Made by a program: the position numbers and the translations under genes. The notes beneath the pieces were generated by a model. The model was not told the origin of the DNA and did not search any database. It saw nothing but the letters and a program-made list of their open reading frames with translations. From Sphaerolaimus hirsutus (Eukaryota; Nematoda; Chromadorea; Monhysterida; Sphaerolaimidae), in assembly GCA_964036195.1 (NCBI GenBank), contig OZ038457.1, positions 24,066,787 through 24,130,786 on the forward strand: 64,000 nucleotides of DNA, given 5' to 3'. Of this stretch, positions 3,521-62,109 are shown piece by piece; the first letter of the stretch is position 1; each line of letters opens with the position of its first letter.

Positions 3521-4343
3521 CAGGGTTGGCAAAATCTCAGAAAAAAATAAAATAAAAATAAAATGGAAAATTGGAGAATAAAATAAAATAAAATAAAATG
3601 GAAAATTAATAAAATAAAAATACAATTTTACTAAAATTCGAATTTTAGTAAAATTTTAGTAAAATTGTACAAAAATTCGAATTTTTGTACAATTTTAGTA
3701 AAATTTTACAAAAACTCGAGTGTCTAAAATTCTACAAAAAGTTTTCTATCCTGTTGCTTAAGATTCTAGCTGCCAATTTGCAGAGCTGGTGCCTTGTTGT
3801 TGCTTTCATTGTTGTGATTTTTGCTCAAAATCACAAACTTTCACATTTTTTATATATTGTCACCTTAAAAAAACTAATTTATGTGATTTTTTCTCATTTA
3901 CTTTGTTCCATACCTTGAAAAAGCCTATATATAAACCCCGCAAGCCCCTCCACCCCACCTAAATAACAAATTAATAGCTATCTTCCCTTGGGAAGAGCAA
4001 TTAGCTGCAGATCTATCCGGCCCCTGTGTGGGTCAAAATTCAACATAACTACATCGCAACCAATGTCACAAGTCTACATGAAAAATTTTTTTGTGTTCAT
4101 CTGTACGCTTTTAGCGTGCACATTGTTTTATGCCCTTGCATCCAAGATTTCCTATTTTTTGTAAAAATTTTGTAAAATTATTGTAAAATTTTTGTAAAAT
4201 GGTTTCATTTTATTTTATTAATGACATTTCAGAATAAAATAAAATAAAATAAACTGAAACATGAATAAAATAAAAATAAAATACAATTTTAATAAAAATA
4301 AAATACAATTTTAGTAAAAAGAATTTTACTAAAACCAACCATG
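3521..4343. mobile_element. hAT element, AAAATAAAAT-word family
   Basis: Ends are CAGGGTTGGCAAAATC and TACTAAAACCAACCATG. The 8-bp duplication GGGGTGAC (3513 and 4344) is perfect. Subterminal zones are runs of AATAAAATAAAATGG and AAATTTTAGTAAAATT on the left, and matching inverted runs at 4195-4335. The centre is unassigned. Confidence 0.82.
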
Positions 4344-6901: not shown

Positions 6902-8333
6902 ATATCAACGTACCTAGATTGCTACAACAACATATGTATAGTTGCGATGCATAGTGGCATTGATTAATACATCATGTGCATTGCATACATGATGTACTTT
7001 TACCTTATTCCAAATGGTGGTAAATATGTCGAGGGGGTTTATTTTTCCTCAGCTTGAAAAAACCTGGGGTATTTCGAGTGGTGGCGTTAATTCAAAGGGG
7101 GTTAATTAGAGGGGTGGGGTTAATTGAAGCGAAATATTTCGAGGAATTTCGGTACTTTTTCTTGTGCATAATATTCCAAACTCGTCTAAATTCTTAACAC
7201 ATCCTTACCGCCACCATGTTTCATTTTTCTAAGGAATACGTACGTGTATATTTTTATGGTAAAAACGTACATATGATGATTAACGGAATAAAAGAAATAA
7301 AAAAAACGAAAGTAGAAGTTTCTGTGCTGTAATTCCGCAGGTGAATGAATCAGATCACGCTATTGCGAACGGCACAAAAGAATGTTCCTTATCACGTGGG
7401 ATAGTTTAATTGTTTTTGTGTCTGACCTTGTGGTTGTTTCTGATAAACGTGTTTGTTTTTCTTAAATACCTACAATTCAATAGGTGCTGATTTGAAATAT
7501 TTGATGGCTCTACTTCTAAAGGTCTATAAGCCCAAAAAGTTGATTTCGAGAAACTTGCATGAGTAGTTTTTCCCCAATTTTCTGTCAGTGATGCATGTCA
7601 AATGGGATTGCTCGCTGTCTATTGTAATCTTCCAAATGTCGATAATAAAATATAAAATTTTTCACCTCTGCTCTCAATATAAATGTAAGCAAAATGCAAA
7701 CGGACAGGTACAAAAAGGAAATAAAAAGTCCAACTACGAAGTAAACAAGTGTACTTTTCCACTTTCTGCCCACATAAAAATTTTTGACCCTACCCCCAAT
7801 AAATTCGCCTTGCAGGAACTCATGGACTTGTAAATTTTTAGAGATCTGTAAACAACAGGTGAAGAAAAAGAAGGAATAAGTTCAGTAAATAAGTGGATTT
7901 ATAAATTCTTGCTTGCTAAAACCATTGTTTTTCCAGCCAGGTAAAGGGTTGATTTTTGGGTTATTTATGGACTTATCAACGTTTAGAAGTCGGCGTCCGC
8001 AATGGACTTTGAGCTTTCCACAAAACGGATGAACTTATCGACTTTTTGCTCTCTGCAGCATGAACTTATCGTTGTTTGCTGGAGATTTTTTGAGGATTGT
8101 CCCTCATTTATCCCAAAGGTGTCAAAATGGGGGATGGTCCGGCCGTAAAGTAGGGGGTGCTACTTTGGGCCGGGCATCATTACGGCAGAGTTGTTTAAAG
8201 TACTGAACTTTTTTCAAAGTAAATGTAAACGTAATGTATTTTATTCTTAGTCACACCTGAATACAGAAAACGTTAAGTAAAAATTTTCTACTTTTACGCG
8301 TGTAAAAGGTGAGTAAACGTAAATATCTGTAAA
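6902..8333. other. Unassigned, with repeat fragments
   Basis: G-rich TA-family debris lies at 7018-7155. At 7930-8070, ATGGACTTATCAACGTTTAG and related words distantly resemble the GTCGACAAGTCCA family. GGCCGTAAAGTAGGGGG at 8120-8165 pairs with the TTTACGGCCGG repeats at 8755-8790. No exon was found. Confidence 0.35.
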
Positions 8334-8580
8334 TACCGTATTTCCTCGAAATACCCCCCGGGGGTTTATTGTTTCAGAGTGAGAATTTTGAGAGAAAAAC
8401 GTGAAAAATGCAACAATAACCACCATTTTTACCTTTTTACAGCCTTATATAAGGATGTAGATGGTATAAACGATGTTCTAACCTAACACAGTAAGTGTTT
8501 TGAACGTCTGTTTTGCGTTTCCCGGACCACAAATCCATAGTGCCCATTTTGAGGGGGGGGGGGGTATTTCGAGGAAATAC
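8334..8580. mobile_element. TA-type miniature element, right end lost
   Basis: The left end ACCGTATTTCCTCGAAATAC is preserved. The right end stops at GAGGAAATAC without CGGT. It sits inside sequence made of AAACGTAAA words (8215-8735), so it was inserted in an older ACGTTT-type element. Confidence 0.65.
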
Positions 8581-8599
8581 ATGCAAATGCAAATGCAAA

Positions 8600-9179
8600 C
8601 GTTACTCGTTTTCTGTATTCGCGTACTTTCAAAAAGTACGCGAGTAACTGAGTATCGGTATTTTTCGGGAGGAAACGTAAACGTATGTACGCAGCACTCG
8701 AGTATACGTATTTATCGAGTAAACGTAAATACGTTTGTACAACTATGCATTACGGCCGGATTTACTTTACGGCCGGGTTTACTTTACGGCCGAGATCTCG
8801 CCGTCAAAATTTGACACTCAAAATGTGCTAGTGACGTCTAACGAAATTTGAAAAAACGGCGAAAAAGTTCAGTAATTCTAACAACTCTGGTGCAAATGCG
8901 ATCCGACATCTTTTACTATTGGGAAATAAAAATTTATCTAAAAGTATTAATGAGATTTTTTTAAGCATCGAGAAAACTGTCCCTAAAAAGCACCCCGTAA
9001 ACTTGTACATTTCTCTTGTTATCACCCCCCCCCCCACGGTGACGTTTCAAAATGCAAACAGCCATTCCAAAAAATTTTCGTTCCAAGTTCCTTCCTTGTA
9101 AAGTTGCCTTCAAGTGCCAAGTGCACTGGGGTGGGTGTTCTCCCAGTGTATGGGTAAAAACATTTGAGTAGTGAAATCA
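8600..9179. other. ACGT-word sequence and unassigned DNA
   Basis: 8600-8740 has GTACGCGAGTAAC and AACGTAAATACGT words and ends GTACAACTATGC, resembling the CAACTCTG hAT end. 8755-8800 has three TTTACGGCCGG units. The remainder has no visible gene. Confidence 0.35.
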
Positions 9180-21816: not shown

Positions 21817-22300
21817 TTGTTACGCCATTTCCGCATTTACCGCTGGTATAATACCCCGCATCTTTTTGTATTGCGGCATGGACATGGTCAGCGCTATAAA
21901 AAGCACCAGGTGGACCTTGGTGCTAAACTCTAAAAGCGACTTGGTGGTTTTCTAACCTCCAGCGTTAATGCTGCGATTACAGTTGATGCTACGTATGCTA
22001 CCTACGTTAATGCTACGTAAAATTGACTGGGCGTAAAATTGCGTCTAATGGCGCCGGAGCAAAATAGCGCCAAGCGCCAAGAGCACCATAGCGCATATTG
22101 ATTTGTCGCTAATGCCAAGCGCCAGTGCCATGACGCTTTTACATCGCTAGGTACTGGGCGCTTAGCGCCATTTTTCTCTGGCATTTTTACATCACTAGTC
22201 ACTGCGGCAGCGTGTAACCACTTCAGGACGCTTCACCGCCCATCCTTCCCAATGTTTGCACTTTGTATGTTAAACTCGGTGAACATAATTCTCTGCCATC
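21817..22300. repeat. Decayed AGCGCC-word element(s)
   Basis: GGCGCCGGAGCAAAATAGCG (22050) and CGCTTAGCGCC words occur, with two right ends, TTTTACATCGCTAG at 22137 and TTTTTACATCACTA at 22184. The left end is not identified. Confidence 0.5.
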
Positions 22301-23062
22301 CAGAGTTGCAAAAGTGTATTTACACTTACCCGAAATACCCGAGTAAATGGGTATTTATATTTACACTTACACTTACACTTTCATAAAATACCCATACACT
22401 TATTTTACACTTTCCTGGGCAAAATACCCGGGTACAGAAAGTGTATTTTTTTCTTTCAGGTGGCCCTGTTTTATGCTTTTGAGAAAGCATAAAATGGGGT
22501 CATGTACAAAAAATGCATTGAAAGTAGAAAATATGGCAAATGTACAAACTAGCCTTTGATCTACAACCTTTGATCAGTACTCATGGTATTCTACAGTTTC
22601 ATCATACTTTTGTAACAAGGACAAGATCAATGGAAATTCACCAGCTGGACACAAAGTCAACGTTTGTATTGACATTTGCTGCATGTCCATTCTTGCATTT
22701 AAACAGTGTGTATCGCAAAGCTTAATCAGTAAAATATCAACACTGAAAAAGTGCCATTATTAGGGACTTCATAACATTACAGTAATTGTTACAGTCTGAA
22801 ATGTTTCATAAAAAGCTGTAAAATGTGAAATAATGCATGAAAATTATAAATAAATTGATCTAAAGGTGAGAACAGCGGTGTTTTCTAATGCTCAACAGTG
22901 AGAGCTCTTTCTAAAAATTTTTTTTACACTTACACTTTTTTTTACACTTTCCTAGGTATTTTTAAAATACCTTACACTTTTGGTATCCATACTCAAAATT
23001 TGGAAAGTGTATTTACACTTACACTTACACTTTCCAAAAATACCGGTATTTTAACAACTCTG
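22301..23062. mobile_element. hAT element, ACACTT-word family
   Basis: It has a perfect 8-bp duplication, CTGCCATC (22293 and 23063). Ends are CAGAGTTGCAAAAGTGTATT and TTTAACAACTCTG. Subterminal regions are TTACACTTACACTT runs with intervening AAATACCC/GGGTATTT. It is collinear with the element at 27602, except that the word ACGTTT there is ACACTT here. Confidence 0.88.
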
Positions 23063-24057
23063 CTGCCATCGCACTCATTTATGTCTCACGTTGGAAGCAT
23101 GCCAATGATGCCGATAATGCGATTTTTGTATAAAGATACAAAAAATCATTGTTGCGAATAAGTTAACATATAGCGTTACAACAGCGATGACTTTTCACAA
23201 CTTTTTATGAAAATCGCATGCGTAAAAATATCGTTGGCACTGTTCCAGCGGGAACCACGCATGCAGGGTGTAAAGTAACTGGAGTATACATGGGGGAGTT
23301 ATTGAAGGGGGTCATGAGTGTATAGTATTAATATTAATATATCAGTACTAATCGCAAAGGCATCATTGAATTATTTTTGTTTAAAAATATACATTCGTAA
23401 AAATTGTTTCTCAAGTGTTTCTCTCAAAATTTGGATTAGAGCGCGAATTGAATTAGAATTTGAATCACAAAATACCGGTGCTTTTGAAAACTGCGCTATT
23501 TTTTTAAATATTCGCAAGCAGTCAGCTACCGAACTCTTGTTTGTTTTGTAATATGACGTTTACATGTTTACCTAATTTTTTACGCCTAATTTTCAAATTC
23601 ACTTCACTGACATTGAATTTGAATTGTTTGATTTTATGCTTTAAGCTTTTTGTCCGGTCAGGAAAATTGTTGTGGGATTTTCCATTGCTCAATCCACTTT
23701 TTCAAAGCACTTTCTTTTGTTTTCTTGAACTTGAACAAAATTGTAAAGTGATTCTGATTCGAAAAATATTTTTCTTTTCTTTCATACTTTCCAATATTCT
23801 GTCGGATTGATATTGAATATAAAATCTTTTCTAGTGTGATACTTACCATTTTAAATCATTTAGCAATCAAAAACATGGAAGTGGTTATTATTTTGTACAA
23901 AAATATAGTCCACTGACCGCACTCGCTTTACTTTGCAATATACCATGTCCCATCTAAATAAAAAATCCTTATTTGTCTAATCATTTTGCATTGCTCTTAA
24001 ACTCAACGTCGCTGCACGCGCAGTGTATTTTACTAACGAAATATCAAAAAAAATTTT
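23063..24057. other. Unassigned DNA with one shared repeat
   Basis: 23075-23290 (CATTTATGTCTCACGTTGGA to GGTGTAAAGTAACTGGAGTA) has a diverged copy at 33880-34100. The rest, to 24057, is AT-rich without exons. Confidence 0.4.
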
Positions 24058-24834
24058 TACCGTATTTCCTCGAAATACCCCCCCCCCTCGAAATACCCCC
24101 CTCGTTGGACCCCGCCCTCTCGAGACCACTATGAAACAATCACCCCCCCCCCTTCGAAATACCCCCCTCGTTGGACCCCGCCCTCTCGAGACCACTATGA
24201 AACAATCACCCCCCCCCCCCTCGAAATACCCCCCTCGTTGGACCCCGCCCTCTCGAGACCACTATGAAACAATCACCCCCCCCCCCTCGAAATACCCCCC
24301 TCGTTGGACCCCGCCCTCTCGAGACCACTATGAAACAATCACCCCCCCCCCCCTCGAAATACCCCCCTCGTTGGACCCCGCCCTCTCGAGACCACTATGA
24401 AACAATCACCCCCCCCCCTCGAAATACCCCCCTCGTTGGACCCCGCCCTCTCGAGACCACTATGAAACAATCACCCCCCCCTCGAAATACCCCCCCCCCA
24501 AATTGAGTGTAAAGAAAACGTACATGACAAATACTGCAGTTTGTGTTCTGCGTAGTGCAGAACACACGTTAAAACAATGTCGGAATCACGTGAGAGCAGT
24601 GTTTATACCATCTACGTACTACTATTAGTCTACAGGAGTCTATACATGACAGTTATTGATGCATTTTTCTACCCCAGCGCACATCACAAACAACGATTTT
24701 GTACTAGGATTTCAAAAAAGTTCTTGCGAAATAATAACCCCCCTCGAAATACCCCCCCCTCGTTTAACCCCCCCCCCTCTCGGGAGCACTATGAAACAAT
24801 CACCCCCCGGGGGGTATTTCGAGGAAATACGGTA
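24058..24834. mobile_element. TA-type miniature element with internal tandem array
   Basis: TA-flanked ends are ACCGTATTTCCTCGAAATAC and GAGGAAATACGGT. The left part is expanded into six tandem units of 65-67 bp starting CTCGTTGGACCCCGCCCTCT, at 24101, 24167, 24234, 24300, 24367 and 24432. The remainder (24490-24830) is the usual family interior. Confidence 0.85.
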
Positions 24835-25483
24835 GCTCGAAATCAGTCTTGAACGCATTTAACTTTACTGGAATGAGTTATTCTACTCTCAGTCAACTGT
24901 AGTTGACGAACATTTACTTCCGGTAAACTCAAATGCTTTTCAAAGTAGATTTTTGTGTTCACTTAATTTTGAAAGGGGCGAATTTGGCGCATAAATTACA
25001 CGGAAATTTATTCATAAAGATACGGTAGCACGTTTGAACGGACAGAATGAATGCTACATACAATGAATGCTACCATATTTTGATGAATAAGGTCACGTAA
25101 AAAATTGGGCACCAAATTCACCCAAACTTTAACCTACCCAAATATCGGGTAGGTTAAATATCGCTATACTCTTGTGTGATCTGATAGGAAAACGTTTTTA
25201 TTTCTGTTCGTTTTTTCAGATGGGATATGGTAGATTTCATTGTAAGGTGTGTCGTCAGTAAACTATATGTATCTTATAATCCAATGTTTAAGCGAAAACA
25301 CTCAATTTGTACACTACATAATATCGAAATTAAAATCTGGGTCACACTTCACTCTCACATTCTTGGTTCTGTATACACGGTGGTCCATTGAGATTGGTGT
25401 CATTTATCCTACATTATTTAGTGGACAAGTGACAGAAAAGTGGTCAGTCAAGTTAAGTGACAAGTGAGTTTTTAAGTGACAAT
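24835..25483. other. Palindromic family copy and AAGTGACA words
   Basis: 24838-24960 is an AACTCAAATG/CAACTGTAGTTGACG copy. 25025-25240 carries GATACGGTAGCACG and GGGATATGGTAGATTTCATT motifs. 25375-25483 has GGTGTCATTTATCC and AGTGACAAGTGAG words. Confidence 0.4.
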
Positions 25484-25530
25484 TAGTGATGTCAAAGCGC
25501 CATTACGTTAGCACCAAGTGCCAAATCCAC
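25484..25530. repeat. AGCGCC-family hAT end
   Basis: TAGTGATGTCAAAGCGCC is a clean left terminus, but only about 45 bp of related sequence follows. Confidence 0.5.
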
Positions 25531-25588
25531 TCCCAAACCCAGACCCTATCAAAAGCCCTGGTGCCAGGCCAGTCCCCACACCCAGGTG

Positions 25589-25793
25589 GCAGTCCCAAGC
25601 CCTGTAAAGTGTAAAGTAAAGTGTCAAATGTAAAGTAAAGTGTCAAATGTAAAGTCAAATGCAAAGTAAAAAGTCAATTGTCATGCAAAGTTCAGTAATA
25701 AAATCTTTTCTTTGTTGTTTTGATTGACACTTTACTTTGCATTTGACTTTTCATTTGACACTTTACTTTACACTTTACAGGGACTGCCCCCTG
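25589..25793. mobile_element. TGTAAAG-word inverted-repeat element
   Basis: Ends are GGCAGTCCCAAGCCCTGTAA and TTTACAGGGACTGCC, with arms of AAAGTGTCAAATG words in inverse order. The central part is shared with the inner element at 6123-6342. Confidence 0.65.
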
Positions 25794-25799
25794 GAAAGT

Positions 25800-27600
25800 A
25801 CAAAGTCAAGTGTAAAATGTCATGTAAAATGTCATACACATTGGTAAATCGTCATGTAAAATGTGAAAAGTTCTGAAAAAAATCTTTTACATTTTAATGT
25901 TTGGAATAAAATCTAACCTTTGACCAGAAAACATCAACAAAATATATGCATCTGTCAAAATTTCCGAACCACCCCCCATTGTGGCCGAGACAAGATTTCA
26001 CATTCCCCTGCACCAGACAGAGTTCAATTTGCATAAGCTGTCATTTGCACACTTCTCATCATTTACTATGGAGTTCCGCACTAGCAAACCGTGACTTGAC
26101 TATAAATTTACACTCTGAAGTCTGAATGTAGGTATTTAAAATACAAAATGGTAAAAAAGTTGAAATCTGACTATGTTTGAAAAAAACGGAAATTCGATAA
26201 GCCATTTTAGAAGAAAAAAAACTTTTTTAGATGGTTTGTCAAATATCATTGGATGTGTGACATATTTACATCATGTTTTCATGTTTCAGGATAAATCCAA
26301 GTAAATGGCATGTGTAGAAATGACCTTGATTCATGATGTCTTCCTGTAAATACCTACCTACATAAATATATGAATTATATCCATTACTGCCATTAGGTCA
26401 TTTATGCATGCCATGTGCACTATATATGCCAATTAGGTGTTCATATTCATAGGTACACAAATAATGATTCCTTGTAAGTGATGGGAAGTTGTTCATCCCA
26501 GGGCCGTGTTCCAATTTGGCACAAACATATGTACTTTCCAGAAAAAAAGTGTTTCAAAATAAATAATATCCAAATACCCAAATACATACATTTTCATGAA
26601 TAATTTGAAGAGATGCAAATCTGATCTTCAATGTAAAATAAATATTTTTAGGTATATATGAAATACCGTCACTTCCTCAATTTCTTTTTAAAATATTATT
26701 TTTGCTATTATACCATCACAATGTTATAATAAATATAAGCAACCATTATATTTATCCTTTTATCCTATTATCCATCAAAATGGCGTCATATTTTCTCCTG
26801 GCACCCAAGTGGACACTTTCCTTGAGAAAATATCCCCATTAGTTCGAGACTAGTAAATTTCTGGGTCATATATTTTGCTACATTCTTCAGAGAACACTGA
26901 GTAAATCTCTCGCAAATTTTGTGTACAAATGAGTGTGTAAATAGTTAGAAATATTCATTTGTAAATATATTCATATATTTTTGTATGATTTCTTTCTCGA
27001 ATCAAATACTATATTCATTATAAACGATATTTAAATATGCATGATACAGGAAACATTTCGATAGATTTTATTTGTCAATTAAACACGATCAAAGCAATAA
27101 ATTATTATCTTAATCTGAATATTTTTTTTTCTAAAAAATCAAAATTATATTTTTCATTCTCCCATTACCCCAATTTTCATTATTATCTCTATTTTTGTGT
27201 GAAAAAATGTAAACAAAAAATAAAATGTCAAATTTTGTGACACTTTTGCAAGTCGGAAGTGTATTTATGAATATATTTAAGTATGTGTTTTACCTGTGCA
27301 AATATTTATTTGACACAATGCAAATAATGTCCATTCAATATGGTTTGTATACTTTTAACTGAGGAAAAATGTGGAATTTTGATCAATGATATTTGAAAAT
27401 ATAATGATCGTATTTCAAAGTTTTAGGAAAACTTTTCATATCACAATAATTTGTAAATACTACAGTATATAAAAGTATTTAGCTCCCTGTCCCTAGGCTA
27501 CATTCCTTGCACCAAATGTTCCATAATTATATGAATAAGGTTATGTCATCAATTTTTTTCTCACTTGTACCATTGTACTATTTACCACGAGTACTATCTA
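25800..27600. other. Gene-free AT-rich stretch
   Basis: AAATGTCATGTAAAATG words persist to about 25880. From there to 27600 I see no exon, RNA or clear terminal repeat. Confidence 0.35.
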
Positions 27601-27601
27601 T

Positions 27602-28104
27602 CAGAGTTGGAAAAACGTATTTACGTTTACCCGAAATACCCAGTTATTTGGGTATTTATATTTACGTTTACGTTTACGTTTTCCAAAAATACCATTACGT
27701 TTTGTTACGTTTTCCTGGCACAATTACCCGGGTACCAGAGAAAACGTAAAAATCGTATGGATAATGCAGAAAACCAGTGCATTTTTTAACTTTTTTTCTG
27801 ATACAATAAGTACAATTTATATTTTTGGCCAATTAGCTGTTTAATCGTTGATAAATAACATAGGTAAGCAAAAATGTGATCGTATTAGCAGAGAAATGCT
27901 TGAAATAGGAATGACAAAGGTGTTTTCCAATGCATCTGATCACGGGTTGTGCACTTCAAAGAAATTTTTACGTTTACGTTTTTTTACGTTTACCCGTGTA
28001 TTTTGAAAGTAATTTACGTTTTCAGTATTGATACTCACAATTTATAGAAGGTATTTACGTTTACGTTTACGTTTTCTGAAAATACCAGTATTTGTACAAC
28101 TCTG
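27602..28104. mobile_element. hAT element, ACGTTT-word family
   Basis: It has a perfect 8-bp duplication, CTATCTAT (27594 and 28105). Ends are CAGAGTTGGAAAAACGTATT and TTTGTACAACTCTG. Subterminal runs are TTTACGTTTACGTTTACG, with AAATACCC/GGGTATTT in between. No transposase. Confidence 0.88.
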
Positions 28105-28126
28105 CTATCTATACCGTATTGTTTTT

Positions 28127-28260
28127 ACCGTATTTCCTCGAAATACCCCCAGGGGGTTTATTTTTTCAGAGTGGAAATTTTGAGGGGGGTATTTCGGGGA
28201 GGGGGGGGGGCTTATTCGAGGGGGGTTTATTATTTCGCCAGAAATTTGCACGAAATTCAT
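28127..28260. mobile_element. TA-type element, left part only
   Basis: ACCGTATTTCCTCGAAATAC followed by GAGTGGAAATTTTGAGGGGG and G-run CTTATTCGAGG. The right end is missing. Confidence 0.55.
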
Positions 28261-32897: not shown

Positions 32898-33438
32898 GTT
32901 CGTTTGAAGTATTTTTTTAATGACATTTATTTTGTTAGGAACTTGCCAACATGGGAATATAAATAGGTAAATAAATATGCCGATTCATCACTTCATTTTC
33001 TTTGCTATTTATCAAAACATATTCTATGAATAGAATGTGTTAGGCCCCTTTTACACCTTTTTTCTGTGACGACTAACGATGGCAAACCCTCCGAAAAAAA
33101 GTATTTAAAGTTCTAAGTGTTTTTTCCAAAGTGAATTTTCGAATTTTCGAATCTTTTTGGGCAATTTTCGAATTTTTTGGGGTAGTTTTTGTATTTTTTA
33201 AAATAATTTTCGAATTTTCTTGGAGAATTATTGAATTTTAACCTTTGAATGCCATATTCATATAGTTTTGATTGGTTGGATCACTTTTTAACTAACCATA
33301 AATACCCCCACCCCCTAGAATTAGCCCCCCCCCTCAAAATACCACCGGGTCTGAATGTGCACTCTGAAAAAATAAACTCCCTACGAGGAAATACAGTATT
33401 CACTGTAATTTGGCTTTGTTTAGTCAATTTTACACAAA

Positions 33439-33847
33439 TACCATATTTCCTCAAATTACCCCCATGGGGTATATTTTTCAAATTGAAAATTTTGAGTGGG
33501 GAGGGGTATTTATTAGGGGGTTTATTATTTTGTCAGGAATTTTTTGAAATCCCAGTACGAAATTTGGGGTAATTTGTTGTTTGTAACGACACAGACGTCG
33601 AAAATGCAACAAAAACCACCATGTATAAGAGTCTACACACTTTAATAAGTATGTAGATGGTAAAAACCATGTTCTAACGTAACACAGTCGTTGTTTTTAC
33701 TGTGTGTTATGCACAAACGGCACCTTTTGTCATTTACGTTCTCTTTACAGTCAATTTGGGTGGTATACTTCGAGGGGGGGTATTAATTCATTCTCCCCAC
33801 TGTGAGGGGGTGTATTTCGAGGGGGAGTATTTGGATGAAATATGGTA
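33439..33847. mobile_element. TA-type miniature element
   Basis: Ends are ACCATATTTCCTCAAATTAC and GATGAAATATGGT, TA-flanked. The interior (AACCACCATGTATAAGAGTC, GTAGATGGTAAAAACCATG) belongs to the same family as 36127. A second partial copy lies at 33293-33392. Confidence 0.68.
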
Positions 33848-34194
33848 TACTCGGCGTACGTGACACTCTGCCCTCACACTGATTTATGTCTCGTGTTGGA
33901 AGCGTGCCAATGATTATTAAATCATACGATTTCCGTAAAAATATGAAAAAAATTCATCGATGTGAATATGTTAGTGAATAACATTATTACAACAAAAAAG
34001 ATTGTCATCTTTTTATGAAACTCGGACGCGTTAACCATCGTTGGCACACTTCCAGCGGGAACCACGCGTGCAGGGTGTAAAGTAACCGGAGTATAAGTTT
34101 GCCATTTTTCAGAGCATTTTCCATGATGTTGACACTTTGCACTTTGCATGACATTTTACATTCTACAGGGCATTTTACTGACTCTGGAACAGGA

Positions 34195-34425
34195 AGTGGA
34201 CTGATGGACTTGTTGGACAGTGCTCTGTTCAACAACTTGCAACAATACCTACAACTCTATACCAATTTTTTTTCATGGAGTTCAATACCAAATTCGTCTG
34301 TTTCAGCAGAAGTAGCTCAACTGCTCAACAAAACAGTAGAGCACCAAGTTCAGTATGCTGGGTGCATTCATCGATGGATCTGTAGTGTTCGCTTCGCCGC
34401 GGACACCATTTCAATGCTTTTATGA
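34195..34425 (+). other. Open frame inside a transposon, not assigned
   Basis: An open frame with plausible composition (FNNLQQYLQLYTNFF, VAQLLNKTVEHQVQYAGC) ends at TGA 34425. It could be a captured or former exon. It lies inside the hAT element 33074-35254 and does not fit the phase chain of the GFR-like gene, which joins 32897 to 35698 directly. Confidence 0.25.
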
Positions 34426-34518
34426 CATTTTTCTTCATTAAATTACTCATTTTCAGATGCATTTCATATCAATTGTTGATTGAATTATCAAATTTAATGT
34501 GAGAATGCGTGTTGTGGC

Positions 34519-35059
34519 TAGGGTGTCAACTTTTCGTTTTCCGTTTTCCGTTTCCGCTTTCCGCAGGCAAATTTTTTTCCGTTTCCGTTTCCGTTTTCCG
34601 GCTGCTAAATTTTTTTTCTGTTTCCGTTTCCGTTTTTCCGGCTCATTTTCCGTTTTCCGGCTAAATTTTCAAATTTTCCGGCTTTTTTAAATTTTCTGGT
34701 TCAATTGTCTGTTTTTCCAACTTTTTTTCCACTTTCTAGCTCAATTTTATGTTTTCTGTTGTAGCCAAACTGGTAAACATGCATGCAGGTTCTCTATTAT
34801 GTGATTTTTTATATTTCTAGTGAGATTTCTGTAAATTTTTTTATTTCTGGGTAAATTTCAGCGAATTTTTTTCCGTTTCTGGCAAAATTTCAGCAAATTT
34901 TTCCGTATCCGTTTCCGTTTTCCGGCCTTTCATTTTTCCGTTTTCCGTTTTCCGGCAAGTGCCAAAATTTTTCCGTTTCCGTTTCCGTTTTCCGGCAAGT
35001 GCCAAAATTTTTCCGTTTCCGTTTCCGTTTTCCGCCAAAAAGTTTTTGTTGACACCCTA
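34519..35059. mobile_element. hAT element, CCGTTTTC-word family
   Basis: It has a perfect 8-bp duplication, GTTGTGGC (34511 and 35060). Ends are TAGGGTGTCAACTTTTCG and AAAGTTTTTGTTGACACCCTA. The body is TTCCGTTTCCGTTTTCCGGC words in the same direction throughout. It is the same family as 52092-52695, in the opposite orientation. Confidence 0.88.
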
Positions 35060-35697
35060 GTTGTGGCCTTGAATTCCCTGAAAAATTCGAAAAGTATTTT
35101 CGAATTTTCGAATTTATGAATTTTCGAATTTTTTGAAAAAAAAATCGATTTTTAAGTGTTTTCTCTAAGGGTGAAATAAAAATTCGAAAATTCTGAAAAA
35201 ATTCGAAAATTCGAAAATGTTTTCGAATTTTCGAATCTTTTTTTGCCATCGTTAGTGACGACTTCGACAACATGAAAAAGTTCAATAATTCAAGTAAAAA
35301 TCCATATTCATTAGATAAAATGGCCGTTGCAAAAAATTTTTGCCATTGTCGGAGCCCGACAGATGGCGACAACGGCAAATTTTTTCAAACGTCTACAACT
35401 CATGAACGACAAGCACGATTCATCTGCAATTTGACATGCATATACGCCTAGGTGGTATGTATACTTGGATATTTTATTTTATGAATATGGATCTTTTTAT
35501 TTGAATTACTGAACTTTTTCATGTTGTCGGAGTCGTCACAGTAAAAGGGTGTAAAAGGGGTCTTAGAGTGCGCAGACATGTCTTCTTCACTCACTATTGC
35601 CACATGTTTTTATAACGCAACACGTATTCATTCACAAAGAAAAATTATTAGAAAATTCTACTCTCCGTATCCTAAAAACTATTTCCCAAATTTCCAG

Positions 35698-39503: not shown

Positions 39504-40453
39504 TAGTGATGTAAATGCACCGGGGCACCGGTGCCCCGGTGCTGGGCTCCGAAGGGCACCAGCACCGGTGCTGGTGCGGTGCCATTGCAATCTTCAGGGG
39601 TGCCATGCCGGTGCCGGTGCCATTTTTTTCAGAATAGCACCGGTGCTGGTGCGGTGCGGTGCCATTTTTTTGCCGGTGCGAAAGGTGCTAGCACCAGGGC
39701 CAAAGTAAAAGGCACCGGGAAAGGCACCGGCCAAGGCTTCATGTGCTGTGCAATGTTGTCCATAGTATGTGCTTATTCATATTTCAAAAAACAGCGATAG
39801 ATTTACCCAACCGTTTTTGCCTATTTTGTAAACCTCCCATCAAATAAATATACCTACTGTGAAGTCCATTATACCCGATACGTGATCTGATGTGCGAATC
39901 TAAAATTTGGCTGAATTTAAAATCATTTTTATATTTTATATTTATCTTACTTTTTTGTTCAAAATTTGTTGTCAGTTTATGACAGAGATAGTTCCATTCT
40001 CTGTACAGCAACGACTCCGATCAGTAGACAATACATGCTATGGAGGCAGGCTATGGACATTGTAGTGAATGAAATATTTTATCTTTCATTTGTAATCATT
40101 GTAATTGTTTCGTAAAAGTGATTGCCACATCATTCTGATCATTTTAAGTGCTCAACCATCAAAATCGGTTGAAAATTCATGGAAATATGCACTTCCAAAG
40201 GTGAGACCACTGAGAAACTGCCCGATATTTACTTCAGAAATTCCAGCCCGGTGCGGTGCTTTTCGGTGCTAGCACCGGCAACCCGCCGGTGCCCTTCGGT
40301 GCCGGTGCCATTTTTTCCAAAAGGCACCGGTGCCGGTGCGGTGCGGTGCCATTTTCTGGCCGGTGCCCCAGGGTGCCAGGTGCCCTTTTCATGCGTTGGC
40401 AAAGGTGCCGGTGCGGTGCGGTGCCATTTTTCCCGGTGCCTTTAACATCACTA
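39504..40453. mobile_element. hAT element, GGCACCGG-word family
   Basis: It has a perfect 8-bp duplication, GTCAACCA (39496 and 40454). Ends are TAGTGATGTAAATGCACCGG and GGTGCCTTTAACATCACTA, the same terminus as the AGCGCC family. Subterminal zones are GGCACCGGTGCCGGTGCGG words. The centre (39740-40240) has no transposase. It lies in the intron between minus-strand exons 40538 and 39243. Confidence 0.88.
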
Positions 40454-42906: not shown

Positions 42907-43755
42907 CAACGATGGGTAAGTTCTCCAGAAAAAAAACACTTTCTGTGTTATGAGTTTTTCAAAAATGAATACGTGTGTTTTGAGTTTTTTTCATGAAAAA
43001 AACTTGAGTAACTCTGTTTTTATTTCTGTGTTTTTTTTGGTAAAAACTCAAGTTTTTTTCATAAAAACTCGAGTTTTTTTCATAAAATGCAAGTTTTTAC
43101 CCAAACACAGTGGTTCAATGCAAAAACAGTGGTTTTTTTCATTACACATTTGTAAATGCATGTCCAGGAACCCTGTAAGATGTGCTGAAAATTTTTAACA
43201 GTCATGGAAAATGTCAAATTAAAGTTTTAACATTTAGCATTATTGATGACATTTTAATTTACTGGTTTCACTTGACTAACTCATCCTTTGACCCATTAGA
43301 GTTGTAAATAATAATACCTTACAAGTGACCGGGCAATGCTTTTGGCAGCTTTGGGGTGAGCCCTCAACTCTGGAATGAGTTGGTGGGTGCAAAAGTCTTT
43401 GTCAATCGGTCAGTGTCAATCACAATTCGAATCATTGTCAGAATGACCAGGTGCCATTTTGTAACTTAAAGTGTATTTCGTTACTTGTTATTAAATTTGT
43501 CCCCTTTATTTTCTGTTGATATGCACTTGTGCACATTTATTTTTTTGTTCAGTTAAACACAGCACAATATTCCTCAAATCCAATAAAAAAACTCAAAAAA
43601 CTTTTCTGTGTTTCCGTGTTTCTGTGTTCTCCAATAAAAACTCATTTGAGTTTTGAGTTTTTCAAAATTTCTGAGTTTCCGTGTTTCTGTGTAAAACAAA
43701 AACACATAAACTCAATGAGTTTCTGTGTTCAATTTCTGTGTTTTTTCCATCGTTG
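42907..43755. mobile_element. hAT element, TTTCTGTG-word family
   Basis: It has a perfect 8-bp duplication, CTCATGGC (42899 and 43756). Ends are CAACGATGGGTAAGTTCTCC and TTTTTTCCATCGTTG. Subterminal words are GAGTTTTTTTCATAAAA and TTTCTGTGTTTCCGTG. The terminus is close to that of 30987 and 33074, but the words differ. Confidence 0.85.
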
Positions 43756-45487: not shown

Positions 45488-47031
45488 CACCGTATTACCT
45501 CGAAATATCCCCATGGGAGTTTATTTATTTCACCAGCAAAATTTGAGGGGGGTTAATGCGAGGGGGGGTTATTATTTCGTCAGAAATTTTCGTAGGGATC
45601 GTAATAAAAAGTGGGCATTTGTGTAACCAAAACATGTAATAAATGTGTCCAAATGGGGTATATTTGGACATAAAAACGTAGATAGCTACACAAACTAGTC
45701 TATGTGTAGCTACAATGCAAATTAGCAGTAATATACATCATGTACCTACATTGTATACATGACGTATTTATTACGTACATGACATACATCATTCCGAAGG
45801 GGGGTATTTCGAGGGGGGGTTATTATTTCCCCAGCCCATTTTGAGTGGGAGTTAATTCGAGGGGGGGTTATTCGAGGGGGGTTAATTCGAGGGGGGATAA
45901 TTCGAGGTAATACGGATGTAAAGGGAACATACATGACCAAAGTTGCGGTTTGTGATCCAGGCAATGCAGAACAGACATTAAAAAGAACCACTGAGTTACG
46001 TTAGAACCTTTTTATACCATCTACCGTATTACCTCGAAATACCCCCATGGGGGTTTATTATTTCGCCAGCAAAATTTGTGGGGGGGTTAATTCGAGGGGG
46101 GGTTTATTCGAGGGGGGGTTTATTATTTCGTCAGAAATTTTCGTAAGGATCGTAGTGAATAGTAGGCATTTGCGTACCCAAAATCGGTAATAAATGTGTC
46201 CAAACAGGATATATTTGGACATAAAAACGTAGATAGCTACACAAACTAGTCTATGTGTAGCTACAATGCAAATTAGCAGTAATATACATCATGTACCTAC
46301 ATTGTATACATGACGTATTTATTACGTACATGACATACATCATTCCGAAGGGGGGTATTTCGAGGGGGGGTTATTATTTCCCCAGCCCATTTTGAGTGGG
46401 AGTTAATTCGAGGGGGGGTTATTCGAGGGGGGTTAATTCGAGGGGGGATAATTCGAGGTAATACGGATGTAAAGGGAACATACATGACCAAAGTTGCGGT
46501 TTGTGATCCAGGCAATGCAGAACAGACATTAAAAAGAACCACTGAGTTACGTTAGAACCTTTTTATACCATCTACCGTATTACCTCGAAATACCCCCATG
46601 GGGGTTTATTATTTCGCCAGCAAAATTTGTGGGGGGGTTAATTCGAGGGGGGGTTTATTCGAGGGGGGGTTTATTATTTCGTCAGAAATTTTCGTAAGGA
46701 TCGTAGTGAATAGTAGGCATTTGCGTACCCAAAATCGGTAATAAATGTGTCCAAACAGGATATATTTGGACATAAAAACGTAGATACCTACACAAACTAC
46801 TCTTTGTGTAGCTGCAATGCAAATTAACAGTAATATACATAATGTACATTGCGTACATGACGTATTTATTATGTACATGACGTACATCATTCCGAAGGGG
46901 GGGGGGGGTATTTCGAGGGGGGGGGTATTTCGAGGGGGGGGGGGTTATTATTTCCCCAGCCCATTTTGAGGGGGGGTCAATTCGAGGGGGGGTTAATTCA
47001 AGGGGGGGGGATAATTCGAGGTAATACGGTA
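45488..47031. repeat. Triple tandem array of an ATTACCTCGAA-subfamily element
   Basis: Three units begin with CCGTATTACCTCGAAATA-type ends at about 45488, 46022 and 46573; the last two are 551 bp apart. Segments 45746-45991 and 46297-46542 translate identically, so the copying is recent. The array ends GAGGTAATACGGTA at 47031. It lies 330 bp before the RRP9 start. Confidence 0.85.
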
Positions 47032-49178: not shown

Positions 49179-49869
49179 TAGGGTTGGGACGATATGACTT
49201 TTCGATATCGATATTCGATATTTTTTTCTGAAACTCGATATTCGATATCGATACGATATGGACCCTCGATATTCGATATCGATATTCAATATGAAAATAT
49301 GCTCGATATTCGATATCGATATTTCGATATTTTCGATATTTCGTCTTTCGTAAAGCAAGGCATATCTTGAGTGGGAAATTGTATTTCCATTTGGTCACAA
49401 ACATAGTTGATCATATTTATTCTTACTGAAGAGTAGATTGTACAAATTCACATAAAATTAACATAAAATCACCCCACAACCTAAAATGTGATGGATGTGG
49501 TAAAGAAAATGCACTATGGCGCCAGCACCATGGCAAATACTCTGACGTGGACATTTGTGAGTGCATTTGCACAATATTAGAGGTGGTTGCAACTGCTAAA
49601 TGGAAATATATGTCATCTGACGACAACGTACACACATGAGCACAGAATTTTTGAAAATTGCCTTAAAAATCACGTTCTAAAAGTGCAATTCCTGGCATTA
49701 TTTAAGTGAGGCCATGGAAGGGAAGAATATCGAAAAATATCGAAAAAATGCTCGATATTCGATATCGATATTCGATATTTTTTCAAAATTTTCGATATCG
49801 ATATTCGATATGAAAAAATAGTCGATATCCGATATTCGATATTCGATACGATATATCGTCCCAACCCTA
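49179..49869. mobile_element. hAT element, CGATATTCGATAT-word family, in RRP9 intron 2
   Basis: It has a perfect 8-bp duplication, ATTCGAAT (49171 and 49870). Ends are TAGGGTTGGGACGATATGAC and ATATCGTCCCAACCCTA. Arms of TCGATATTCGATATCGATA words surround an unassigned 320-bp centre. Confidence 0.88.
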
Positions 49870-50980: not shown

Positions 50981-51603
50981 TAGGGATGGCCAAAAAACGT
51001 TGTTTTTAACGACCCTGTTTAAAAAAAAAGTTTTTAAATTTAAAAGTGTTTTTTTAAAGCTCCCAGATATGGTTATGGGTCAACATATACAGGTATATCA
51101 AACAATTGCCAGTACTTTGTGATGTTATATATAGCCACAGAATGGCCGTGGAGCCATGGGATAGCAGTATAAGTGGTGATTTCTGTCAAAAATATCCATT
51201 TTTTGTCGACTTGTTACGTACGAAATGTTCTTGACTTCAAGTCAAGTTTGCATGGAATAGCACTTATACAAGGTTATAATATAAGGCTAATCCATTGACA
51301 GTGATGGATCACACTGTAGAAGTATGTGGGAGCACATTGGGGGCTGGATATTATATGCTACACTAACATATCACGGCTTATTATGACACGGCTAAAAATG
51401 CCTCAAAACCAATGAAAACAACCACAAATGGTAAAGTGTATGTGAAATTGCGCGCTTGCGCACAAAAAATTGCAAAATACCTAGTACATAGTAAAAAAAA
51501 TTTTGCCTGATGTTTTTAAAAAAACAACGGTTTCGATGCCTCTGTTTAAAAAAACAACAACAACATGTTAAAAAAACGGTTAAAAAAACACCGGCCATCC
51601 CTA
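50981..51603. mobile_element. hAT element, AAAAACGTT-word family, in RRP9 intron 4
   Basis: It has a perfect 8-bp duplication, GTTTGAAC (50973 and 51604). Ends are TAGGGATGGCCAAAAAACG and ACACCGGCCATCCCTA. The interior (GGAGCCATGGGATAGCA, AGTGGTGATTTCTGTC) is shared, inverted, with 53949-54599. Confidence 0.88.
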
Positions 51604-52091: not shown

Positions 52092-52695
52092 TAGGGTGTC
52101 AACAAAAACTTTTTGGCGGAAAACGGAAACGGAAACGGAAAAAATTTTGCACATGCCGGAAAACGGAAACGGAAATGGAAAAAAATTTGCACTTGCCGGA
52201 AAACGGAAAACGGAAAAATGGAAGGCCGGAAAACGGAAACGGAAACGGAAAAATTTGCTGAAATTATGCCGGAAACGGAAAAAATTTGCTGAAATTTTGC
52301 CGGAAACGGAAAAAATTTGCTGAAATTTTGCCGGAAATGGAAAAAAAATTGCAGAAATTTATCCTGAATTAAACAAATTTGCAGAAATCTCACTAGAAAT
52401 AGGAAAAATTCACTTCATTGAGAACCTGCATGCATTTTTACCAGTTTGGCTGAAACAGAAAACAGAAAATTGAGCTGGAAAGTGGAAAAAAAGTTGGAAT
52501 AACAGACAATTGAACCGGAAAACGGAAAAAGGCGGAAAAACTGACAAAATTTGCCGGAAAACGGAAAATGAGCCGGAAAAACGGAAACGGAAACGGAAAA
52601 AAACATTAGCAGCCGGAAAACGGAAACGGAAACGGAAAAAAATCTGCCTGCGGAAAGCGGAAACGGAAAACGGAAAACGGAAAGTTGACACCCTA
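52092..52695. mobile_element. hAT element, CCGTTTTC-word family (reverse orientation)
   Basis: It has a perfect 8-bp duplication, GCTGCCAC (52084 and 52696). Ends are TAGGGTGTCAACAAAAACTT and AAAGTTGACACCCTA. The body is CGGAAACGGAAACGGAAAA words plus GAGAACCTGCATGCATTTTT, which matches the inverse in 34519-35059. Confidence 0.88.
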
Positions 52696-53948: not shown

Positions 53949-54599
53949 TAGGGTTGGCCGATGTTTTTTTTTAAACGTTTTTTTTATTTAAAAAAAACGT
54001 TTTTTTTTTAAAAAAACATGACGTCCGAAAAAACATCAGCCGAAATTTTTAGTACTAAGCACTAGGTATTTTGCAAAATTTTTGCGCGCAAGCGCGCAAT
54101 TTCACACACAAATTGACATTGGTGGTTGTTTTCATTGGTTTTGTTGCATTTTTAGTATCAAAACATCCATTTCTATGTGCTACCATGGGTGAATAAGCCG
54201 ACATATTTATGTTGCTGTAATATATAATATTGAGGTAATGTGCTTCCATGTACCTCCACAGTGTGTAACTTCACTCCCAAAGTAACAACCTCCTTTTATA
54301 ACCTTGTTTGATCACCATTTCGTGCCAAACTTTACCTGAAGTCACGAACATTCGACTATAAGGCGATATACGAACGATATGTCGACGAAAAATGGATATT
54401 TTTGACACAAATCACCACTTATAATGCTATCCCATGGCTCCACAGCCATTATATGGTCATATTTAACATCACAGAGTATTGCCAGTGTCTGATATACCTA
54501 TATATGTTGACACTAGGTCATATCTGGGAGCTTTTAAAAAAAACGTTTTTTTTTAAAAAAAACATCGAGTTAAAAAAAAACGTTTTTTTTCCAACCCTA
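53949..54599. mobile_element. hAT element, AAAAACGTTTTT-word family
   Basis: It has a perfect 8-bp duplication, GACTGGAC (53941 and 54600). Ends are TAGGGTTGGCCGATG and GTTTTTTTTCCAACCCTA. Arms are TTTAAACGTTTTTTTT words. The interior is an inverted relative of 50981-51603. Confidence 0.88.
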
Positions 54600-57927: not shown

Positions 57928-59939
57928 TTGAGGCGTCCAATTCTAAAAGTCGACAAGTCCAAATATGAAAATTTCGAGTTAGGCCCGGAAACGTCATCTG
58001 GGGCTACTTCCGCACATTTTTCATCATTTTCCATAAATTTTTTGACCTCACATGCCCATATGGCATAGTGCCAAATTCGACTTTTTGGGGAAAAATGCAA
58101 AAAATTTGGGCAAGAAGTCGACAAGTCCACATAGTTTTGGGCTAAAAGTCGACAAGTCCATCCTGCGCATCCTTTTTTTATGGAAAAAAAACGCAAGAAA
58201 TGTGATAAGTCCACTATGGGCACCGATTTCTAAAAGTCGAGAAGCGCATAAATTTCCCATAAGGGAGGCGCAACCATAGGGGATTTTGGGGTTAGCATTT
58301 TAGGGGGGGGGGGTTAACCTGCCGGCGCGTGCTAATAACTCGGGAACCGCTTGGCGAAAAATGTTGAAATTTGGATATGATATAGTTCTAGGTTGGAGCT
58401 ACGCACAATTTTGACGATTTTTTTCTACGACCCCCCAGACCGGAGATAGGGGGGGTCTATAAAAACACTGTCATTTGCGTTTTTTTGGGTGTCGCAGAGA
58501 ACATGCAAACTATGAACATCAATAGCTCGGTCATTTATGAACCGATTTTAGTCATTAAAATGTTAAAATGATCACAAATGTTCGGAGAGTTCATTTCTGA
58601 GGTCAAATCGGAGATACACATTTGTTTATATATCGATTTAGCCCGATTTCGAAATGCAAAATTTCCGCAAAAGTTTGCTTTTTGAACATGCTATCCTATT
58701 CTCCTGATCGAGAGAAACTCAATGAAACAAAAATGAGATCGATATCTCTTTCCGAACAAAAGTTATGGCGCTTCAAACTTTTCCCTCCCATCCACATAAA
58801 TAACCACATGCATGCAACTTCAAAACTCCATATCTCGGCCATTTCTCAGCCGATATTCACTTATGAACACTTAAAATGATCAGAATAACATGGAGATTTC
58901 ATTTTTGGGACAAGATTATCCGTATTTTGCAGCAGATTTCCCATACAAGCAAATAATGCGAACTCTTGAATTAAATTGTCATAATGAAAATGCATACAAA
59001 TAAACTGTGGATAAAAATGATATCTACATGTTGTTCTGATCATTTTAAGTGTTCGTCAGTGAAAATCGGCTCAGAAATGGAAGTTTTGAAGTTGCATGCA
59101 TGTGGTTAATTATGTGGATGGGAGGGAAAAGTTTGAAGCGCCATAACTTCTGATCGGAAAGAGATATCGACCTCATTTTTGTTTCATTGAGTTTCTCTCG
59201 ATTAGGAGAATAGAATAGCATGTTCTAAAAGCAAACTTTTGCGGAAATTTTGCATTTCGTAATCGGGCTAAATCTATATATAAACAAATGTGTATCTCCG
59301 ATTTGACCACAGAAATGCACTCTCCGAACATTTGTGATCATTTTAACATTTTAATGACTAAAATCGGTTCACAAATGACCGAGATATTGATGTTCAAAGT
59401 TTGCATGTTCTCGGTGACACCCAAAAAAACGCAAATGACAGTGTTTTTATAGACCCCCCCTATCTCCGGTCTGGGGGGTCGTAGAAAAAAATCGTCAAAA
59501 TTGTGCGTAGCCCCAACCTAGAACTATATCATATCCAAATTTCAACATTTTTCGCCAAGCGGTTCCCGAGTTATTAGCACGCGCCGGCAGGTTAACCCCC
59601 CCCCCCTAAAATGGTAACCCCAAAATCCCCTATGGGCGCAACGCGGGCGGGAACAAAAATGTTCGCGCGTGCAAGAGGGCGACAAGTCCATTTCCCTCCC
59701 AAAAACAGTTTTGCTCTGACCGAATGGAATTTTATGGACACCCCATTTTTCACATATACGTTGAGATTTGGGGCTGAAAATTTGACACTTTATTGTCAAC
59801 ATATGGAACTTAATGAACAGCATGAGAGAGCCAAATTGGACACGCACCACGGGCCTGGAATTGGGTTTGAAACTTAAAATGCGATTTACTCAAAATCACA
59901 TGATGTGGACTTGTCGACTTTTAGAATTAGACGCCTCAA
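57928..59939. mobile_element. GTCGACAAGTCC-end element interrupted by a hairpin hAT
   Basis: TTGAGGCGTCCAATTC to GAATTAGACGCCTCAA, homologous along its length to 21175-21816. Subtracting the insertion 58275-59634 and one 8-bp duplication leaves 644 bp, against 642 bp in the intact copy. Confidence 0.8.
58275..59634. mobile_element. 1.36-kb hairpin hAT element
   Basis: It has a perfect 8-bp duplication, GGCGCAAC (58267 and 59635). Ends are CATAGGGGATTTTGGGGTT and AACCCCAAAATCCCCTATG. The arms, each roughly 620 bp, are near-perfect reverse complements (for example CCGGCGCGTGCTAATAACTC pairs with GAGTTATTAGCACGCGCCGG) around a loop of about 130 bp at 58895-59025. No coding capacity. Confidence 0.88.
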
Positions 59940-61667: not shown

Positions 61668-62109
61668 TAGGGTTCAAACGGGATCTCGATCCCGGATCCC
61701 GTGAAATTCCGGGATTTCGCAGTCCCGATCCCGAAACCCCAATCCCGAAACCCCAATCCCGATCCCGAAATCCAAAAATACCAATCCCGATCCCGTTCCC
61801 GAAAACTTTCAAATACCGATCCCGAGAATCTCCCAAGTCCGGGATCCCGATCCCGGAAAAAATAGTGGAAATTATAAAAAGTGAAAAAAATGACATTTTT
61901 GCGTGCAAAAATGTGTACGCAAACCCGCAGCGTCCATTTTATGTCACTTTTCTGGCATCCAACAGTGTTTTGAGACCTTCATGAACAACTGTGAATGCCA
62001 GAACAGTGACGAAAATCTCTATCCCTAGACCCCAATCCCGATCCCGAAAAAAATGCCGATTCCGAAACCCCAATCCCGATCCCGAAAAGTCAATCCCGTT
62101 TGAACCCTA
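61668..62109. mobile_element. hAT element, GGGATCCCGATC-word family
   Basis: It has a perfect 8-bp duplication, TTCACATT (61660 and 62110). Ends are TAGGGTTCAAACGGGATC and TCAATCCCGTTTGAACCCTA. Arms are CCCGATCCCGAAACCCCAAT words; the 170-bp centre is unassigned. The open frames here are read-through of the words. Confidence 0.88.

Follow-up and report, generated by a model that had tools for sequence, protein, structure and literature searches.

We analysed a stretch of 64,000 nucleotides from the nematode Sphaerolaimus hirsutus (contig OZ038457.1, positions 24,066,787 to 24,130,786 of the forward strand; hereafter the window, whose own numbering is used below). It holds two hAT miniature inverted-repeat transposable elements (MITEs), E1 of family A and E2 of family B, that share one sequence frame and differ in the spelling, or dialect, of a 6-bp word repeated about 15 times per element. 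Each element is bounded by target-site duplications (TSDs) and terminal inverted repeats (TIRs), as follows.

22301..23062, plus strand: E1, family A hAT MITE, dialect ACACTT, 762 bp; TSD CTGCCATC on both sides, TIR CAGAGTTG/CAACTCTG
22293..22300 and again 23063-23070, unstranded: E1 TSD CTGCCATC, 8 bp, exact
22312..22444, plus strand: E1 left-arm words, AAGTGT at 22312 and 22439; ACACTT at 22322, 22363, 22369, 22375, 22396 and 22407
22926..23032, plus strand: E1 right-arm words, ACACTT at 22926, 22932, 22944, 22974, 23015, 23021 and 23027; AAGTGT at 23005 (the odd slot, see below)
27602..28104, plus strand: E2, family B hAT MITE, dialect ACGTTT, 503 bp; TSD CTATCTAT on both sides, TIR CAGAGTTG/CAACTCTG
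27594..27601 and again 28105-28112, unstranded: E2 TSD CTATCTAT, 8 bp, exact
27613..27747, plus strand: E2 left-arm words, AAACGT at 27613 and 27742; ACGTTT at 27623, 27664, 27670, 27676, 27697 and 27707
27970..28074, plus strand: E2 right-arm words, ACGTTT at 27970, 27976, 27986, 28016, 28057, 28063 and 28069

The exact 8-bp duplications, which differ between E1 and E2, and the short CAGAG-like TIR at both identify the two as hAT elements, whose TIRs start with a CAGAG-like sequence (YARNG). No listed open reading frame of at least 120 amino acids overlaps E1 or E2, and both are short, high in copy number and without coding capacity, as MITEs are. The genome (348 Mb, 762 contigs) was searched with each element, only the best being scored of 2356 first-look candidates for E1 and of 3230 for E2. 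For E1 this gave 40 near-full-length matches, of which one is E1 itself and 39 stand at 95-97%, and in addition a short match at 84%; for E2 it gave 40 near-full-length matches including E2, the rest at 95-98%. In total 38 copies were fetched, 8 from A and 30 from B, and 36 of them are flanked by exact 8-bp duplications, a mark of mobility; the exceptions are L020, whose duplication is not exact, and L022, which was matched two bases short of its end, so that its test was misplaced. The fetched copies are not all independent, since some pairs (L003/L005, L049/L050 and L074/L075) have the look of segmental duplications.

The alignment, the duplications and the CAGAGTTG/CAACTCTG ends agree with the first-pass annotation, which had placed two elements here with a shared terminus and collinear blocks. 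E1 carries 13 forward ACACTT and 3 reverse AAGTGT words, and E2 carries 13 forward ACGTTT and 2 reverse AAACGT words. In the left arm the forward words of both elements lie at offsets 21, 62, 68, 74, 95 and 105/106, and in the right arm the forward words of E1 and E2 have near-identical distances from the right end. At 15 of the 16 ACACTT/AAGTGT words of E1, E2 has ACGTTT/AAACGT in the matching slot. The earlier claim that one word replaces the other at every site thus holds for these 15 and fails at position 23005, where E2 has a different sequence; in addition, the single ACGTTT of E1 (offset 359) lies in the core, outside the arms. The sixteenth slot (E1 22439, E2 27742), just beyond the aligned arms, shows the same swap, this pair having been matched by distance from CCCGGGTAC and not by the aligner.

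We then compared consensus sequences of family A (8 copies) and family B (30 copies) over the aligned arms, which contain 15 slots. All 30 sites at word positions 3 and 4 differed (15/15 each), whereas word positions 1, 2, 5 and 6 differed at 0 of 59 sites and the frame at 35 of its 190 positions (Fisher p = 3.4e-19 for the switching and 3.4e-5 for the conserved word positions). The change was AC in A versus GT in B in 14 of the 15 slots and AC versus CT in the odd slot.

A third family, C, carries ACGCTT/AAGCGT, which is one base from the A word and one base from the B word. It was recognised from the flanks of fetched copies and by a pattern search of the genome, in which the shared-frame pattern, able with one mismatch to catch A, B and C, occurred at 4321 places at no more than one mismatch and its reversed control at 0. 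Among the 30 loci then fetched, 22 are complete elements of 380 to 1255 bp with duplications matching at 7 or 8 of 8 bases, and 20 of these (L039 and L057 excluded) form the C arm consensus. Between this consensus and that of A, 7 of 188 frame positions differ, and of the 15 slots 14 differ at word position 3 and none at word position 4; compared with B, word position 4 differs in 15 of 15 slots. The prevailing word in the odd slot (reverse, right arm, E1 23005) is ACCTTT in B but ACACTT in C and A, so position 4 changed there too. Given the intermediate word of family C, the swap between B and A breaks down into two one-base steps. In C elements the left-arm run of tandem words also differs in length by whole 6-bp units (2, 3 or 4), as in L041, L049, L062, L066 and L068.

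Other spellings were sought at slot 2. Among 100 listed of the 4321 places, slot 2 read GC in 97, GA in 2 and TC in 1, and the first slot in the 97 GC rows included AAGTGT 7 times and AAGCAT twice. Two slot-2 patterns jointly covered all 14 dinucleotides besides AC and GT within the spelled-out frame; the pattern for nine of the 14 occurred at 108 places, and the 100 listed were mostly ACATTT beside an AAACGT first word. There was no sign of a fourth common slot-2 dialect among the places listed (100 of 108 and 100 of 4321).

Dialects were nearly pure within single elements. Our sample comprised 74 elements with duplications (73 plus L081, described below), 64 of which fit the A/B/C frame (33 B, 22 C, 9 A), and words were counted in 14 aligned slots of each, with the odd slot omitted. 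The 462 slot cells of B contained 433 ACGTTT, 1 ACGCTT and 0 ACACTT; the 308 cells of C contained 277 ACGCTT, 2 ACGTTT and 3 ACACTT; and the 126 cells of A contained 123 ACACTT with 0 ACGTTT and 0 ACGCTT. The remaining cells held decayed words or gaps. More than one canonical word was present in the aligned slots of 5 of the 64 elements, four with a single stray and L039 with two; when whole arms were counted, in slots or not, the number was 11 of 64.

Word type tracks the frame tree. In the tree built from non-word columns of the 64 elements, C and A together were separated from B with support of 1.00 and A formed a clade (0.97), while branching within C lacked resolution and the mean frame distance between A and C (0.106) was close to that within C (0.098). 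An outgroup is provided by an element elsewhere in the window:

8186..8747, minus strand: family D element with mainly ACGTTT words and another repeat inside; left TIR CATAGTTG at 8747, TSD found

The left arm of family D matches B arms at 72-74% identity (E 3e-9 to 4e-7), and on this similarity the family is a homologous outgroup of A, B and C. In a left-arm tree of 74 non-word columns rooted on D, the A/B/C group was set apart from D (100), and C, A and the copy L046 grouped together (86). Because the words of D (TIR CATAGTTG) are mainly ACGTTT, with some ACTTTT, and A/B/C stand apart from it, ACGTTT (B, D) would be ancestral, and the path most simply runs from ACGTTT to ACGCTT (C) and on to ACACTT (A). 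Words reading ACGCTT also occur in D-frame copies (one in L060, three in L064), and these few could possibly reflect a parallel change within the D clade.

The reading that we consider likely is as follows: the word is a putative docking site of the transposase, recoded in successive amplification waves as the specificity or affinity of the enzyme shifted. The change from C to A falls at a CpG, and CpG decay products exist among the copies, as they would if a mutation bias such as methyl-CpG deamination had turned ACGCTT into ACACTT throughout. Deamination acts on both strands, however, and decayed words indeed go both ways (3 ACACTT and 6 ATGCTT in C; 10 ACATTT and 6 ATGTTT in B), whereas all 14 of the 14 word CpGs of C were changed in one word orientation (ACA) in the A consensus, an outcome with a chance of 0.5^14 = 6e-5 if the strands were equally likely. 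Moreover, A kept 5 of 7 frame CpGs of C against 0 of 14 word CpGs (p = 0.001). CpG decay alone therefore fails for A, since other copies decay both ways and the changes of A go one way; the step from B to C, in which T is replaced by C at position 4, involves no CpG loss at all. We disfavour mutation bias as a very improbable cause.

One copy, L046, mixes the C and A dialects. It is collinear with A across both arms and the entire core (70% over 510 bp) and carries eight ACGCTT words, four ACACTT/AAGTGT words plus the odd slot, and two decayed words; the automated search found no clean target duplication for it. An earlier description of L046 as switched in its reverse words and unswitched in its forward words, drawn from the left arm only, was wrong, as the right arm has two forward ACACTT words. 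L046 is an intermediate or, alternatively, an old copy of C type in partial decay. Its switched slots are scattered and form no tract, which argues against templated homogenisation, in which slippage, gene conversion or template switching would have spread one mutated word to all slots. The 6-bp variation (2, 3 or 4 units) of the left tandem run in C is of the kind that such a process would leave; however, single words in varied surroundings make up seven of the switching slots, two of which are reverse, and the word flanks vary from slot to slot. We judge this explanation improbable.

The partial mosaic of L046 fits the main rival to a recoded docking site, namely an affinity upgrade under an unchanged transposase that always preferred AAGT-type words, with better sites gained singly and A the strongest state. 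It is consistent with Hermes, whose BED finger has good affinity for AAGT but little for AAGC (PMC10368747), the C to A step being AAGC to AAGT. On the other hand, B copies (at least 95% like E2) and the abundant C family amplified despite words that would have been poor, and B keeps the ancestral word in 433 of 462 slot cells, which suggests that this word was optimal for the enzyme of its own. We regard the affinity upgrade as unlikely, although it is the alternative that we take most seriously.

The first-pass annotation had proposed coordinated replacement of a subterminal word within a homologous frame, and this is supported: dialects are near-pure, the frames of C and A are near-identical, and the word changed in 14 of 15 slots between them. 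The tree from non-word positions with word identity mapped onto it, suggested there as a check, likewise showed the word following the tree. Its direct two-base swap has to be given up, since the abundant ACGCTT family stands between the two words. Gradual intermediates, named there as grounds for rejecting the idea, are partly present in the position-by-position C/A mosaic of L046, while ordinary CpG decay alone does not suit A.

Remnants of hAT transposase genes were found within elements of this group. Genome-wide, the PF05699 profile matched 28 times. L081, a 1266-bp element flanked by the duplication GCACCATG, has B arms and contains a hAT C-terminal exon free of stops, matching PF05699, the hAT C-terminal dimerisation domain, at E 3.7e-13; next to a B-type right arm, L087 has a nearly identical exon that includes a stop. 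When the genome was searched with the L081 exon and the best 150 of 282 candidates were scored, 149 matches were obtained, and nine of these sites were then fetched (L090-L098). L094 and its upstream neighbour L099 make up a 1053-bp element that is flanked by the duplication CCTGGTAG, carries A words in each arm and retains a degenerate exon (59% identity to the L081 exon over 69 residues), and L091 and L095 have the exon with B-type right arms. By type of end, the 26 transposase-exon sites fetched were divided as follows.

A ends: 1 site (L094)
B ends: 4 sites (L081, L087, L091, L095)
D ends: 5 sites (L079, L090, L092, L093, L096)
TAGGG type ends: 7 sites (L077, L078, L080, L083, L084, L088, L089)
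No assignable end: 9 sites (L082, L085, L086, L097, L098, L100-L103)

Judged from these matches, related hAT exons are present in elements with ends of three types, A, B and D. L102, which has no assignable end, carries four ACGTTT words close to its exon. Many matches to the L081 exon span only about residues 65-94 or 43-95 (e.g., L090, L091), which suggests MITE families that keep a gene tail.

We propose the following mechanism for the recoding of a docking site. Both arms of the non-autonomous elements E1 and E2 carry one 6-bp word, the likely site for the N-terminal BED zinc finger of a hAT transposase, with many weak sites bound together. Changes in BED residues would alter the base contacts singly, each shifting the preference or affinity of the transposase for the base concerned. 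Copies with better-matching words would then be mobilised more, so that, in each successive wave of amplification, all sites would carry the new base and the other positions of the word would remain as they were. The new spelling would thus spread by selection during transposition rather than by templated copying. The role of the word as a transposase-binding site is probable in light of the hAT remnants in A and B elements and of published subterminal binding by hAT transposases.

Several observations weigh against this reading. The odd slot breaks the rule at word position 3, and stray words lie beyond the aligned slots in the whole arms (3 ACACTT in B, 1 ACGTTT in A). Because most A and B copies were picked for their similarity to E1 and E2, part of the purity in these two families follows from the sampling; the C copies were selected on slot 2. 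As a C/A mosaic, L046 speaks against strictly simultaneous change, and change within a lineage may therefore have been gradual. On the protein side, none of the 26 transposase-exon sites had C-dialect arms, none of the fetched C loci held a transposase exon, and neither a complete transposase nor a BED domain was obtained for any of A, B and C.

The window holds further repeats and elements, several with words of their own. A second hAT clade (TIR TAGGGTTCAAAC or TAGGGTTGGGAC) is present at 61668-62109 and 49179-49869 and in L080, L083, L084, L063 and L098, with L083 and L084 at PF05699 matches. Its right-end words read CGATAT, CGGGAT or CGGGAC in a common frame with about three slots aligned, and the clade seems to show the same kind of word swap. 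Elements with TAGGGTGTCAAC, TTTCCG words and 8-bp duplications are found at 34519-35059 and 52092-52695, and their relatives L077, L078 and L088 lie at hAT C-terminal exons; the element at 34519-35059 is nested in a TAACGATGGCAA element (33074-35254) that has its own word, TTCGAA. Further candidate elements with 8-bp duplications lie at 39504-40453, 42907-43755, 50981-51603 and 53949-54599, several of them tiled with their own word, e.g., CACCGGTGC or AAAAACTC. A C-rich repeat, ACCGTATTTCCTCGAAATACCCCC, occurs at 24058-24834 (with a 66-bp tandem array at 24077-24495), at 28122-28173 and in the D element 8186-8747, partly as inverted copies. The element at 58275-59634 has long inverted arms CATAGGGGATTTT and the 8-bp duplication GGCGCAAC. 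Identical rows of tandem repeats 551 bp apart (45847-46124 and 46398-46675) suggest a tandem duplication across 45847-46675.

How the specificity of a DNA-binding enzyme can change in step with that of its many sites has long been asked, and studies have mostly worked from end states. Here, three states related by single bases coexist with an outgroup and a mosaic in close frames; copies number in the thousands, some transposase remnants are attached, and the order of steps, the role of the intermediates and the specificity of each state are therefore directly testable. More tentatively, and with somewhat more doubt than belief, we suggest a process of "dialect speciation", in which a recognition code would be rewritten base by base, cohorts would be recoded at nearly every site, and the path would be left as countable fossils that include L046; it may have happened independently in the D clade and in the TAGGGTTCAAAC clade.

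By words and ends, rather than by sequence comparison, these families resemble Hermes, which has a CAGAG-type end and an 8-bp duplication, as do E1 and E2. Read on the other strand, the words are AAACGT in B, AAGCGT in C and AAGTGT in A. The Hermes BED finger recognises AAGT when AT-rich DNA follows it, and has weak affinity for AAGC; five short words lie in the first 55 bp of each end, and AT-rich surroundings are needed (PMC10368747, excerpt). The two systems thus share many short words near both ends, with AAGT as the core of the A word and AAGC as the core of the C word. In Hermes, however, AAGT and AAGC are mixed and arranged differently at the two ends, and the excerpt does not describe family-wide recoding (PMC10368747). 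Diversifying specificity is also documented for hAT-derived CGG-binding proteins: the DNA-binding domains of hAT proteins are diverse in specificity, and the motifs of the four hAT proteins tested match subterminal parts of their own elements. That diversification is on the protein side and across species, and the excerpted text holds no coordinated word replacement within a family (PMC8097297). Among the open-licence papers that literature searches listed, judged by titles and the starts of abstracts, none describes coordinated replacement of a subterminal word; a coral MITE paper concerns a different matter (PMC2872659). The Herves transposase binds a repeated subterminal CG/AATTCAT motif, and its authors point out that bound sequences differ among hAT elements; Herves, Ac, Tol2 and Tag1 have, as the present families probably do, a repeated, element-specific subterminal motif bound by the transposase (PMC3143072). 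Those are distant elements, whereas here three dialects occur in close frames within one genome and in an order of single-base steps.

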